Notes under the pieces: model-generated
What the model was told of the DNA's origin: nothing
Seen by the model: the letters and a program-made list of their open reading frames with translations, nothing else
The model's database searches: none
In this document: positions 50,210 through 56,400 of the stretch, one piece after another
Layout of the letters: every line of letters starts with the position of its first letter
Numbering within the stretch: position 1 is the stretch's first letter
Position numbers and translations under genes: made by a program
NCBI RefSeq assembly: GCF_000379025.1
Contig: NZ_KB900617.1
Location: 106,504-170,503 of the forward strand
Direction of reading: 5' to 3'
Length of the DNA stretch: 64,000 nucleotides
Source of the DNA: Orenia marismortui DSM 5156
Lineage (GTDB): Bacteria > Bacillota > Halanaerobiia > Halobacteroidales > Halobacteroidaceae

Positions 50210-52795
50210 TTAAAAACTGATTTTAAAATCCCAAAATGCTTCAATCTCTCTACCTGAATAACTAATCCCTAACTTAGGAACTAATTTAAGTCTATTAAGG
50301 GTACCAATCTCACATGATAATTCATATCCATAAGCAACTTTATCAGATATTGTATCAATATCTGTATAATCAACAAATAAACTACCATAAATATTATCCA
50401 TAAAGATATTGGGATTCCACAACCCCTTCCTAAATTGCAATAATTTATGACTATAATCAACACTAACTTGATAACCACTTACATTATTGTCATAAATCTC
50501 TTCCAAAGCAACTCCTCTAATATTACTCTCTTTTTCAAAATCTTTAAAGAGGCTACCTTTAATTTTTATACCACTATTATCCATTAAATATTTATAGTCA
50601 AACTTACTATTAACTCCTTCATCATTTATATAACTTTGTACATAAAGTTCTAAATCATGATGTGGATAAGTAAAATCGAATTTTACCCCTGGTATAGCTT
50701 CACTAAAATCTGTAGTATAATCTATCTTAACCCCTGATAAGCCTTGTTTAGAACTATAAAGTTGATAATCAAGATTTAATTCTGTTTCTCGCCCATCCTT
50801 TTTAGCTTTATTATTAACATTAATAGCTAATGGATCTAAAAATTTGGAAGTAAGACCAAAGTTTATTCCTCCATACTGAGAAGGAGAAATCGTATATGAG
50901 TTCATCCCTAATCCATCCATGCCAACCAATAATCCCGCTGAAGGACTAAGTTGAGAATCTAACTTTATAATTCCATTGGGTTTTAACAAATATTTTAAAC
51001 TTTTAGCCATAGCTTTTCCTTCTTTTACTTCTTCTTTAATATCAGAAATAAGTATGCTATCTTTTTTAATACTCTCTTCTCTTTTAGGTAAGTTATATTC
51101 TTTGCCATTTACTTTCTTCTTATATATCCCTCCACCATTATTATTCATTGCAATAAAATACAGATTATCTTTGTAAAACTGACCATTATTAGCATAGCAA
51201 TCTGTTAATTTATATGTTTTATAAGTATTTAAATCATACTGATATATAGACTGTTGATGATTATAATTAGCGGTAAAATATAGCTTATCCCCTTTAATAC
51301 TTATCTCTTTTTCTGTCCAATCAGTATCAATTATAGGAATAAGTAACATTTTCTCTAAGTCTAAATACTTAATTCCCCAACTACCTAGATTCTCTTTACT
51401 GACTACAATAAATCTATCTTTGTATCTTTTTATCTCTGAAATTAACTCCTTAGTAATGCCCAGTTTCTTCTTTTTATCCTGTTGATATTTCCAGATTTCA
51501 GAGCCAATTCCCTGCTTGTTAGCCTTTGTATAAATAATATCACCATTAGCAAGAACAATAAAATCTTTAAATTCATCCTCAAATAATCTCTTATTCTTTC
51601 CTGTCTTTAAATCATATTTATATAATCTAGCTATTCCACCATATCCTGATTCTACTAAATTATTATAGTCTTTGCTATAATCTAAAACTGAATAATATAA
51701 TTTACCATTAACAATCTGTAAAAATCCATTGCTTGTGTTACTACTTGCTATAACCTTCTTTTCTCTAGTAAGTAGATCATATTCAACTAATTCATAAACC
51801 TCTTTATAATCATAAGGAAAAGATTTTAAATATCTATTTTGAAAATAATAAATCTTATTATCAGCTATATCAAATGTAGAAATCTCTCCTTGCTGACTAT
51901 GAAGAACTTCCTGACCACTTAACTCCCAATCCTTATATTTTTCCTTAACATAGCCTTTCCAATCTGCAAATAATTCAGGGAAAGTTTTATTATAAACATC
52001 TTTAGCTGCCTTATCCAAACCTATAGCAGGAAACAGATTCCCCTCTATAGGAACCCAAAAATAAGAACCATGTAGAGTAAAAAATTCTGCTAATTTTTCT
52101 TCTCCATAAACTCTAGCTAGATAATCCATAAATTCTGAACCATAAAGATAGCCCTGATTATAAGGATAATAATCCTTTACATAAGTTACTTCATTTAATG
52201 ATGGTAATTGGTCTTCTTTAGCTTTAGTGGCTATTAAAGCATCATAATACCCAGCATTTAATCTACCTTCATATTGATTTAATTGGGATTCACTATAAAC
52301 TGCAGTTCCTTCAGTTAACCAAATTGGACTATGAAAATTAGGAGAAAATAACCTTCCGAATAAGGTAGTAGTTATTTTAGATACTCCTGAATAATTATTA
52401 TACTGAGCTAAATGGGTAAATTCATGAACTACAGTCCTTCTATGTCGATTCTTATCTTCTGGTTTATAGGTTATTGTAGAAGGAATATTAGTAAACATTC
52501 CTATAGTATTAGTAAATATATTAGCATATCCATTGCTTTCCATTCCTAAATCTTGAATAATAATTGTTGGCTTAAAATCTAATTCAGTTCCAGTTAAACC
52601 AATAACCTCCGATTTATACTCTTCTAAATAATATATCATTTCCAAAGCCCTTTGTTGATATTCTTGAGGATAAAAAACAAGAAAATTGTCAGTCTCATAA
52701 TATCTCCAATCAATCATATTAGCCGAAACATTACAAGAAAATCCTAAAAATATAATAATAAAAATTATAAATGCTACTACCTTATCCTTCAGCAT
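50210..52795 (-). CDS. Secreted zinc metalloprotease with predicted outer-membrane beta-barrel
   Basis: 861 residues. Signal peptide (1-26); peptidase MA-like domain with VVHEFTHLAQ (HExxH, 124-128) and WLTEGTAVY giving the third ligand; a beta-propeller-like middle (about 300-590) with repeated YYFQN, LYKYDLKTGK and IYQYDLNTYK strands; and a C-terminal 220-residue region of alternating beta-strands ending in WDFKISF. A terminal Phe after alternating residues is the BAM outer-membrane signature. Start: ATG at 52795, with GGAGG 5 bases upstream. Co-transcribed with the secreted protein before it. Confidence 0.85.
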   Translation of the reverse strand: MLKDKVVAFIIFIIIFLGFSCNVSANMIDWRYYETDNFLVFYPQEYQQRALEMIYYLEEYKSEVIGLTGTELDFKPTIIIQDLGMESNGYANIFTNTIGMFTNIPSTITYKPEDKNRHRRTVVHEFTHLAQYNNYSGVSKITTTLFGRLFSPNFHSPIWLTEGTAVYSESQLNQYEGRLNAGYYDALIATKAKEDQLPSLNEVTYVKDYYPYNQGYLYGSEFMDYLARVYGEEKLAEFFTLHGSYFWVPIEGNLFPAIGLDKAAKDVYNKTFPELFADWKGYVKEKYKDWELSGQEVLHSQQGEISTFDIADNKIYYFQNRYLKSFPYDYKEVYELVEYDLLTREKKVIASSNTSNGFLQIVNGKLYYSVLDYSKDYNNLVESGYGGIARLYKYDLKTGKNKRLFEDEFKDFIVLANGDIIYTKANKQGIGSEIWKYQQDKKKKLGITKELISEIKRYKDRFIVVSKENLGSWGIKYLDLEKMLLIPIIDTDWTEKEISIKGDKLYFTANYNHQQSIYQYDLNTYKTYKLTDCYANNGQFYKDNLYFIAMNNNGGGIYKKKVNGKEYNLPKREESIKKDSILISDIKEEVKEGKAMAKSLKYLLKPNGIIKLDSQLSPSAGLLVGMDGLGMNSYTISPSQYGGINFGLTSKFLDPLAINVNNKAKKDGRETELNLDYQLYSSKQGLSGVKIDYTTDFSEAIPGVKFDFTYPHHDLELYVQSYINDEGVNSKFDYKYLMDNSGIKIKGSLFKDFEKESNIRGVALEEIYDNNVSGYQVSVDYSHKLLQFRKGLWNPNIFMDNIYGSLFVDYTDIDTISDKVAYGYELSCEIGTLNRLKLVPKLGISYSGREIEAFWDFKISF

Positions 52796-52807
52796 CAAAT
52801 CCTCCTT

Positions 52808-53530
52808 TTATTTTAAATATTTAATTTCAATTGATTCAATAATTTCATTAGCTGTAGTTATAGTTTCTAAATTTCTAAATAATTTTCCATTCTTTCCTGA
52901 AGGATGACCATGTCCAACCTTTTTAAGAACAGTAGTAAATCCGTCTTTAATTTCAATTTCACCTTCCCAAAGTAAAGATGGCTGACCTGAAGTATCATTA
53001 TAATTAAAATTATTTTTAGATAATTTTTTCTTGTACGTTTCATTGTAATCAATAGATTGATTAACTTCCAATCTTATAACAAGTTGTTTTAATTTTATAT
53101 CAGCTGGAATTATCCATTTGCGAGTAAAACCTTTTTTAGGTGTAGCACCTGTAATTGCATCAACTAATGGTTTATCTTTTGTTGGCATATATAGTCCATC
53201 ATTATATTTTATCCCTCTTTTATGTGACCAAATAGGCAAAGCATCTGGTCTGCGAATATCCTTCCCACCTGACCATTTAGATTTTCCACTAGATTCAGTT
53301 ACATAAATAGTATCTATATAATTACCTTGCTCATCTTCTAACCAAATTGCCATTTGTGGATTACTTTTAATTGGAAAAATACCAAGCCAATACCAAGTAA
53401 CATCCTTATACCTCTCGCCTGGTTTTACTTCAACAGAAATTCTTCCTTCACTTTGTGCTCTTATAATTCCTGAAATTAATACAACTAAAATCATAACTAA
53501 AGCCATTAATTTCATTCTACTCTTAAACAT
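52808..53530 (-). CDS. Secreted DUF2271-like protein
   Basis: 240 residues. Signal peptide (1-25), then WLEDEQGNYIDTIYVTE, RRPDALPIWSHKRG and DAITGATPKKG. These phrases resemble the DUF2271 group of periplasmic proteins; I hold this with moderate certainty. Function unknown. The start follows GAGGAGG. It ends 12 bases before the metalloprotease gene, so the pair probably works together at the cell envelope. Confidence 0.75.
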   Translation of the reverse strand: MFKSRMKLMALVMILVVLISGIIRAQSEGRISVEVKPGERYKDVTWYWLGIFPIKSNPQMAIWLEDEQGNYIDTIYVTESSGKSKWSGGKDIRRPDALPIWSHKRGIKYNDGLYMPTKDKPLVDAITGATPKKGFTRKWIIPADIKLKQLVIRLEVNQSIDYNETYKKKLSKNNFNYNDTSGQPSLLWEGEIEIKDGFTTVLKKVGHGHPSGKNGKLFRNLETITTANEIIESIEIKYLK

Positions 53531-54636: not shown

Positions 54637-56337
54637 CTATCGAGAAGAATTAATTCTTTTAGCTTCTTTTAAATCAATTTTTGCTTTATAACCATGTTTC
54701 TCTAAAAGATGAAGAAGATTTGAGCCATTTAAAAGTGTAATAGGTTTATCTTTAGCAAAATTATGCGAATCTGCCCCATAATTTGATGTTGTAACTAAAA
54801 TTCCTTTTGTTGCTCCTTCATTTACTACAGTTCCATAAAGATCACGAACTGCTGAAACTCCAACAACATTAGTATATCTTTTAGCTTGAATAACAATTTT
54901 ACCACCACGAATTGGATCTGGATCAAAAGCTATAGCATCTACTCCTCCATCTCTACTAGATTGAGTAACTTTTACCTCTCCACCAGTTTGTGAAAATTCT
55001 TTTTCAAATATTTCTCTTATAAGATGTTCAAAATCTTGCCAATCCATTGCAGCCAAATTGTCAGCATCATTTAAATTATCACTAACATCATAGGATTCTA
55101 TAAATCTACTATCTTCCTTATCGATTTTTATTATAGGAGCAACAGGAGATAATTTATATAGTCTAGAGGCTCCAACCCCTTTTAAATTCTTAAAACATTC
55201 TTTAGGGTCAACTAAATCTAAATTGATTTCATGAAATTCCTTTTTAGTAACTTGAATAGATAAAACACAAGGACTAATTTTTTTACCAGTTGCTTTATCT
55301 ATTGTCCTTACAAACCCATTAAAAACAATTGCATCTATAATATCAATTTCATCGGTTTGATATATATCATTTATAGTTTTAAGAGCTATCTGATAAAGAA
55401 TACCATCATATAATTTTCTAAAAGCTGTTTTTGATAATTCTTTTTCTTTAAAAGAATCTCTAGTTTTTATATATTTAACTTCTTGAATCTTAGGTAAATC
55501 TTCATGAGAAGGCAATCTATAGTCTAATAATAAAATATTATTGTCAGGGTTATAATCAATTTCAAATTCTTGTGGAAAAATATCAGGATATTTAACATTA
55601 TCTAAAACTATATCATAATATTCAGCAATAGCAGAAGGTACTTTATTAAAGTATGCTTTTTCTAAATTAATTATATACTGATTATATTCTTCTTGTTTTT
55701 TATAAAATTCCTGTTTGTTATAATCCCATTTCTTTAAGCTTGTTTCGTATTCTTTTTCAATTTTTTCATTTTCCTTTATAATTTTATTTTTTCTCTCTTT
55801 CCAACTCTTTATATCTTTTTTATGTCTTTCTAAAGCTTTATTATATTGATTATTAGATATTTGTTGCTTTTTTATTTTGCGTTTTTTGAAAAGTTTATCT
55901 AATAAATTTATTTTAGGTTTATAATATTCTCTTTTTGGTTCCCCTACTGGCTTAGGAGGAAGCGACTTTAATCTTGCTTTTTTAGGTTTTCTTTTTTCAA
56001 ATTTAGATTCATCTTTTAATTTATCCCAGTTAATACTATTATCAATTTTTAGTGAATTTACTAACATGTTTTCTAGACTTGCCTTTAGTTTTTGAGCTTT
56101 TTCCGTTTTTTCTTTTGCTATTTCACTTTTTCTTTCTTGATCTAGTTTTTTTAATTCTTTTCTTTGTCTTTTTTCTTCTTTTTCTAATTTTTTTTGCCAC
56201 TGCTCATCCCATCTTGCAAGTTGTGCATTAGCTTTTCTTTGAGCTTCTCTCTTGGTTTTTCCCTTGATAATTTTGTATTTATTTAATCCATTATGACTTA
56301 TTTCAATTTCATATGTAGGATAAATTGCTCTTGGCAT
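54637..56337 (-). CDS. Mrr-type restriction endonuclease protein
   Basis: 566 residues. A long Lys/Glu-rich coiled coil fills the first 230 residues. The C-terminal 120 residues are a PD-(D/E)XK Mrr-cat domain: DWQDFEHLIREIFEKEF, SSRDGGVDAIAFD (catalytic Asp) and IVIQAKRYTN (QxK). Mrr-like enzymes cut modified or foreign DNA. No methyltransferase lies nearby. The ATG at 56337 follows AAGGAGTG. It starts 64 bases after a GTTAGGC core and ends 13 bases before an attC-like element. Confidence 0.85.
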   Translation of the reverse strand: MPRAIYPTYEIEISHNGLNKYKIIKGKTKREAQRKANAQLARWDEQWQKKLEKEEKRQRKELKKLDQERKSEIAKEKTEKAQKLKASLENMLVNSLKIDNSINWDKLKDESKFEKRKPKKARLKSLPPKPVGEPKREYYKPKINLLDKLFKKRKIKKQQISNNQYNKALERHKKDIKSWKERKNKIIKENEKIEKEYETSLKKWDYNKQEFYKKQEEYNQYIINLEKAYFNKVPSAIAEYYDIVLDNVKYPDIFPQEFEIDYNPDNNILLLDYRLPSHEDLPKIQEVKYIKTRDSFKEKELSKTAFRKLYDGILYQIALKTINDIYQTDEIDIIDAIVFNGFVRTIDKATGKKISPCVLSIQVTKKEFHEINLDLVDPKECFKNLKGVGASRLYKLSPVAPIIKIDKEDSRFIESYDVSDNLNDADNLAAMDWQDFEHLIREIFEKEFSQTGGEVKVTQSSRDGGVDAIAFDPDPIRGGKIVIQAKRYTNVVGVSAVRDLYGTVVNEGATKGILVTTSNYGADSHNFAKDKPITLLNGSNLLHLLEKHGYKAKIDLKEAKRINSSR

Positions 56338-56400
56338 AAATTTCACTCCTTTAACTTTAGTATTATTGTCCATTTAAACCATAAATATTCCTTGAGCAAC

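Follow-up and report, generated by a model that had tools for sequence, protein, structure and literature searches.

The gene described here lies in a 64,000-nucleotide stretch (the window) of the genome of the halophilic diderm Orenia marismortui DSM 5156 and encodes a protease, a propeller, and an outer-membrane barrel in a single predicted chain. As modelled, the domain order is signal peptide, metallopeptidase, TolB-type propeller, and Omp85-type barrel. Our analysis supports the assignment of the protein as a protease–propeller–Omp85 fusion. The earlier note was right in proposing a barrel, and its main point is sharpened here; the function that we suggest is tentative. Computation established the architecture and the class of the barrel, and also that the catalytic residues do not vary in the family and that the host has BamA. 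The coordinates are collected in Table 1.

Table 1. Features of the protease gene, its product, and the upstream neighbour (positions in the window).
Feature	Residues	Positions	Strand	Basis
Whole gene		50210..52795	-	ORF, ATG, ribosome-binding site; AlphaFold2 pLDDT 90.4, pTM 0.91
Signal-peptide-like N-terminus (hydrophobic run, then VSA-N)	1-26	52718..52795	-	sequence; helix 2-21 in model
Gluzincin-like metallopeptidase domain	28-291	51923..52714	-	PF13485 Peptidase_MA_2
HEFTH zinc-binding/catalytic motif	124-128	52412..52426	-	H124, E125, H128 invariant 59/59
Glu162 of W-x-x-E-G (WLTEG), candidate third zinc ligand	162	52310..52312	-	invariant 59/59
TolB-type beta-propeller	293-565	51101..51919	-	VIA-align to E. 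coli TolB; profile match
Omp85-type beta-barrel	608-861 (modelled domain 592-861)	50213..50974	-	model, VIA rows, profile-profile homology
L6-like loop motif IRGV, between strands 11 and 12	759-762	50510..50521	-	domain model; family conservation
Last strand, ..EAFWDFKISF, terminal Phe861 (beta-signal-like)		50213..50242	-	sequence, domain model
Upstream neighbour, secreted DUF2271 protein		52808..53530	-	PF10029 27.9 bits vs cut-off 27.3

The open reading frame runs on the minus strand from the ATG at 52795 to the stop codon at 50210–50212, and its product of 861 amino acids has the C-terminus EAFWDFKISF. This ATG, preceded by the ribosome-binding site AAAGGAGG, was chosen as the start in preference to the TTG at 52798, which was a mechanical call of the ORF tool. 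In line with the signal peptide claimed previously, a signal-peptide-like stretch is evident in the N-terminal sequence, and a crude hydrophobic-run test for such a peptide was passed by all 59 family proteins. The full-length protein was modelled by AlphaFold2 from 59 aligned proteins, with the confidence values given in Table 1.

The named genomes contained 147 stretches encoding relatives, and 80 of these were kept. The 59-row alignment used throughout consisted of the window protein and 58 of the 80 kept loci. The loci cut by contig ends (L124, L138, L140, L146), those with broken or shortened frames (L148, L151, L153), the truncated L157, L125 with its long N-terminal extension, the weak L155 and L156, and L158–L168, which matched in the N-terminal part or were cut, were left out. 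Intact members of the family were found in Orenia metallireducens MSL40 and Halonatronum saccharophilum DSM 13868. A contig scan using the single window protein as the query gave no match.

The C-terminal part of the protein is, according to the model and the profile comparison, an Omp85-superfamily barrel. When the last 270 residues were modelled alone, AlphaFold2 gave a pLDDT of 92.1, a pTM of 0.81, and 16 strands, whereas the full-length model had 15 strands with a weak first one. The alternating strands up to the terminal WDFKISF, noticed before from the sequence, are present in both models. The previously expected barrel of 8–14 strands was found as a barrel in a confident model, but its strand number had to be corrected to 15–16, and the barrel belongs to the Omp85 superfamily, which is characterised by 16-stranded transmembrane barrels. 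It should be noted that strand 1 is short and that residues 611–620 were modelled below pLDDT 50, which counts against the assignment. In the domain model, a single long loop connects strands 11 and 12.

The barrel domain was compared with known structures by Foldseek, and Foldseek's best 1000 PDB chains were re-aligned by VIA-align. Foldseek alone placed general porins on top at E ~1e-3, with none at E<=0.001, which also counts against the assignment. The Omp85 ranking results from the VIA-align re-alignment and not from Foldseek's own order. Among those 1000 chains, the best 50 VIA-align rows all belonged to the Omp85 superfamily: FhaC (Z 15.9, rmsd 4.4, 228 aligned), BamA (Z 15.9, rmsd 5.1, 250 aligned), TamA (Z 15.1, rmsd 4.8, 242 aligned), and Deinococcus BamA (Z 15.0, rmsd 3.5, 234 aligned), rows less than 1 Z unit apart being tied, and, lower among the 50, CdiB, Sam50, and Toc75.

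Profile–profile comparison supports the homology of this barrel with Omp85. The alignment of the 59 family barrels with 22 Omp85 barrels from diderm Bacillota by hhalign had a probability of 87.5 and an E of 3.6e-6 over 83 columns. In a local repeat the score was 44.9. Meanwhile, 200 block-shuffled profiles scored 18.4 on average (sd 2.7, maximum 28.2), 100 column-shuffled profiles reached at most 20.0, and the reversed profile, the propeller, and the peptidase scored 16.1, 13.9, and 18.5, respectively. The shuffled and reversed profiles excluded a chance strand pattern as the source of the match.

For a bridge set of 15 distant relatives, selected by eye because their ends looked like barrels, the match to Omp85 had a probability of 99.1 (E 5.6e-19, 253 columns), and the match to the window family had an E of 6.3e-22 (271 columns). 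A less selective bridge of 28 sequences gave an Omp85 probability of 98.6 (E 9.5e-16, 235 columns) and an E of 1.1e-20 with the window family. The 13 of these 28 that lay outside the first bridge set reached a probability of just 48 with Omp85 (E 1.8e-4); both the 28 and the 13 include L163_4278_7064, an unrelated neighbour and the one sequence without HExxH. In four peptidase-bearing proteins of 855–879 amino acids (L074, L079, L081, L082), the C-terminal part had no Omp85 homology (hhalign probability 0.8), and it may form another type of barrel.

Searches with single sequences or against PDB sequences were less productive. The Omp85 model PF01103 matched none of the 59 single family barrels at E<=1, and the barrel profile found no match at E<=1 in the PDB sequence search. 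Seven stray Pfam families were hit on the family barrels, three of them being outer-membrane families (Usher, ShlB, Porin_4). Because the Pfam model misses such barrels, the counts of the Omp85 superfamily are probably too low.

In Omp85 proteins, the loop between strands 11 and 12 carries the L6 motif (V/I/L)RG(F/Y). The corresponding loop of the family has the consensus IRGY, with R in 54/59 proteins, G in 51/59, and Y or F in 51/59. The loop of the window protein itself reads IRGV instead of IRGY/F, which counts against the assignment. In strands 13–14, D809 (49/59), G823 (58/59), and E829 (56/59) are conserved, and the consensus of the family barrel can be written as IRGY...EY...L...LF.D.A...S.G.EL.

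The terminal Phe pointed out in the earlier note is indeed the last residue of the protein (Phe861). This ending is commoner in the family than expected by chance: 24/59 proteins end in F against a background of 6.2% F, the rows being related and the draws thus not independent. The last residue is F, W, Y, L, I, V, or M in 48/59 proteins; in the other 11 it is not hydrophobic, which counts against the proposed reading.

The propeller-like repeats seen previously turned out to be a TolB-type propeller. Namely, residues 312–565 could be fitted to E. coli TolB by VIA-align with a Z of 21.5 (rmsd 2.8 A, 232 aligned), and the propeller profile matched TolB 7mx5 with an E of 2.7e-6. TolB, which has the same propeller fold, is a separate soluble periplasmic protein, whereas the propeller of the window protein is part of a fused chain. 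In the full model just one short helix lies between the propeller and the barrel. No POTRA domain could be matched to this protein at E<=1. A Pfam scan covered 12 of the 15 bridge proteins (L066, L069, and L073 were left out); PD40 repeats were found in all 12 and POTRA in none of them at E<=0.01.

The HExxH motif from which a peptidase was assigned earlier was likewise confirmed. Both HEFTH and the downstream Glu162 are preserved throughout the family, H124, E125, H128, and E162 being unchanged in 59/59 aligned full-length proteins, so that HExxH with a downstream Glu, the criterion of Peptidase_MA or gluzincins, is present in every one of them. HExxH was also found in 15/15 distant relatives. 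By the gluzincin pattern, Glu162 is a candidate for the third zinc ligand. Judged by these sequences, the peptidase is apparently active.

The peptidase domain was matched by PF13485 (Peptidase_MA_2). Its match to the whole protein (E 9.6e-6, 26 bits) lay below the gathering cut-off of 32.4 bits, as did that to the peptidase domain alone (28.6 bits). PF13485 was matched at E<=0.01 by 22 of the 30 family peptidase domains scanned, which were every second row of the 59-protein alignment. For M48, the family of BepA-like proteases, the search of the window protein gave nothing at E<=1, and one distant relative (L166) scored 20.0 against the M48 cut-off of 20.3. In the PDB sequence search, the sole match of the peptidase profile was an aminopeptidase at E 0.059, and the match lists of the structure searches with the whole model were filled by the propeller. 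The domain of the Omp85 'Metallo' subfamily is PF00149, which we take to be a metallophosphatase and not an HExxH protease; that of the window protein is an HExxH peptidase. In the 2014 survey text the 'Metallo' subfamily is described as a hydrolase domain on an Omp85 barrel and called a metalloprotease (PMC4104836).

At E<=1e-10, the family was found in 31 of the 398 genomes of the phylum, and Omp85 in 102. All 31 family genomes also have Omp85 (Fisher p 9.5e-21, kinship being ignored). A query with the barrel only found 18/398 genomes at E<=0.001, all within these 31. Of the 13 genomes of the order, seven gave a match, two of the seven (G006, G009) having remnants only. The gene is dispensable, being absent from the other six genomes of the order and decayed in those two, which counts against the proposed reading.

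The 59 rows carry 12 phylum labels (among them Caldifarciminota, Cloacimonadota, Spirochaetota, and Goldiibacteriota), and 11 rows belong to no group. The phyla with family members are described as diderm. In a quick tree with many weak forks, the Bacillota rows stand at two places, and at least two changes are needed. Plain vertical inheritance among the firmicutes was rejected, as the Halanaerobiales rows join one Margulisbacteria and one Cloacimonadota row and not the other Bacillota clade.

The host genome (3.46 Mb, 9 contigs) contains four Omp85 loci. The earlier note had made its reading depend on BamA, and one of these loci does encode a BamA with three POTRAs. It adjoins TamB (PF04357), three genes that we presume to be Skp-like, and one that we presume to be LpxD-like, both labels being given by sequence likeness. 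A BamA–TamB–Skp cluster is on record from Halanaerobiales and Negativicutes (PMC5007114). The host genome encodes two BamA-like proteins that carry POTRAs (L086 7756–9477, L087 7785–9554); a 2016 survey gives a single BamA for the halanaerobes that it analysed (PMC5007114). The locus L088 7785–8810 on contig C7 encodes a stand-alone Omp85 barrel of 341 amino acids without POTRA (PF01103, 73 bits).

The window protein shares the barrel fold, the strand count, and the position of the L6 motif with BamA, TamA, and FhaC. These proteins have POTRA domains and no enzyme domain, whereas in the window protein it is the reverse. BepA, YcaL, and LoiP are not known to carry a barrel fusion. These M48 zinc metalloproteases of E. 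coli are, like the function considered here, linked to the assembly of outer-membrane proteins and are tied to the removal of stalled ones (PMC13067283). In PlpD, a patatin-Omp85 protein, the enzyme is N-terminal to the Omp85 barrel, as in the window protein, but it is a patatin lipase followed by POTRA instead of a peptidase followed by a propeller. The patatin domain of PlpD, formerly thought to be exported, has been located in the periplasm, and the same source lists the WD40-like and metalloprotease Omp85 classes as poorly characterised (PMC11116518).

The closest known relatives by description belong to the WD40-Omp85 class. Heinz and Lithgow, who defined the Omp85/TpsB superfamily by its barrel, distinguished ten Omp85 subfamilies in 2014, and the WD40-Omp85 subfamily with its TolB-like propeller was likened to a BamA–BamB fusion (PMC4104836). 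As in the window protein, an N-terminal TolB-like propeller is joined there to an Omp85 barrel without POTRA; the text of that survey names no peptidase before the propeller, whereas the window protein has one, the two being compared by description only (PMC4104836). It may be that the distant relatives with PD40 repeats are this very WD40-Omp85 class, in which case the peptidase is a feature that the survey text leaves unmentioned (PMC4104836). The class has thus been named since 2014, and the HExxH peptidase fused ahead of the propeller is what appears to be new: we found no description of a peptidase–propeller–Omp85 fusion in the literature searched, which included few subscription papers.

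Judging from the model, the sequence, and the analogy with these systems, the protein is probably a periplasmic metalloprotease tethered to the outer membrane, with a role in the quality control or maturation of outer-membrane proteins. The periplasmic placement, the activity, the substrate, and any role of the barrel beyond that of an anchor are what we infer. After Sec export, BamA would fold the C-terminal third into the 16-strand Omp85-type barrel, the last strand being the recognition signal that BamA reads. The TolB-type propeller would sit near the barrel mouth, at the position of the POTRA domains in BamA, and would carry the HExxH peptidase; most likely it would dock or filter substrates. 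The peptidase would then act on the inner side of the outer membrane, cleaving misassembled outer-membrane proteins or proteins needing trimming. A tethered counterpart of the job done by BepA, YcaL, and LoiP would be our first guess.

In this arrangement, the active site most likely sits at the outer membrane on its periplasmic side. Because an even number of strands keeps the N- and C-terminus on the same side, the part before the barrel is expected to be periplasmic. The surface or the periplasm had both been considered before; the predicted even strand count and the normal topology of outer-membrane barrels favour the periplasm and speak against the surface. Surface display or secretion, with the barrel passing the propeller and the peptidase outside so that the protease acts on an extracellular protein, would nevertheless agree with the exporters FhaC and CdiB among the best structural matches, and PlpD was long believed to work in this way (PMC4104836). 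We regard it as quite unlikely, as the order of peptidase, propeller, and barrel, the short linker, and the even strand count all oppose it, and as the same idea, when tested for PlpD, ended with the enzyme domain in the periplasm (PMC11116518). A soluble beta-sandwich, or another extracellular domain merely resembling a barrel in its strand pattern, was the outcome that the earlier note had set against its own proposal. The failure of single-sequence family searches to find any barrel family in the window protein would fit it, but the model is a confident Omp85-type barrel and no sandwich, the best 50 VIA-align rows are Omp85 only, and the profile homology withstood its controls, making this reading extremely improbable.

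The tethered protease also has to be weighed against readings that give the other domains the leading part. An assembly factor, in which a BamA-like barrel opens laterally, the propeller acts as POTRA or BamB, and the peptidase clears stalled substrates, all in one chain, would explain the Omp85 barrel with its conserved L6 motif and its D809, G823, and E829, as well as the TolB/BamB-like propeller, and WD40-Omp85 has been likened to a BamA–BamB fusion (PMC4104836). Since every family genome tested has a separate Omp85 protein and the gene is often missing or decayed, we consider such a factor unlikely. That the HExxH domain is inactive and serves for binding only is very unlikely: the invariance of the motif and Glu162 in 59/59 proteins, and of HExxH in 15/15 distant ones, is unlike a dead enzyme, even though the O. 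metallireducens locus L022 (7578–9344) has lost the peptidase and kept the signal peptide, propeller, and barrel, which tells that the remaining domains can exist alone.

Omp85 proteins build the outer membrane. The tethered protease preferred here would mean that an apparently active protease has been added to a predicted Omp85 barrel, with catalytic residues invariant over about a dozen phyla, which raises the question of whether an Omp85 barrel can anchor a protease that works at the outer membrane. A bolder reading, which we hold to be unlikely, is a single-chain machine in which the propeller and an active HExxH protease would take the place that POTRA domains have in an Omp85 insertase. 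Assembly, inspection, and destruction of outer-membrane proteins would then be brought together in about a dozen phyla, diderm Bacillota among them, in a form invisible to the Omp85 Pfam model.

The gene neighbourhood was examined in the window and across the family. The DUF2271 gene lies on the same strand and ends 12 bases before the ATG of the protease gene, so that co-transcription of the two is possible. The gene was not recurrent among the neighbours of the family. A conserved operon partner was rejected, as none is shared across phyla and both the DUF2271 neighbour and the Omp85–patatin pair described below are local. Because no partner gene recurs across phyla, the gene order points to no substrate.

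The DUF2271 protein itself (52808–53530, minus strand) has a signal-peptide-like start, and its LVDAITGATPKKG fits the [S/T]GA[S/T] site. ApbE flavinylates such a site in DUF2271 (PMC8238504). A paralogue of the window protein, 45% identical, is encoded on a different contig of the host genome. At this locus (L016 6208–11290, contig C2), a POTRA-less Omp85 of 443 amino acids is followed by a patatin and then by the protease paralogue; the patatin has DUF6363 and no signal peptide. Elsewhere in the window, the minus-strand gene at 54637–56373 encodes a protein in which a long charged N-terminal part accompanies a restriction endonuclease domain of the Mrr type (PF04471, 108 bits).
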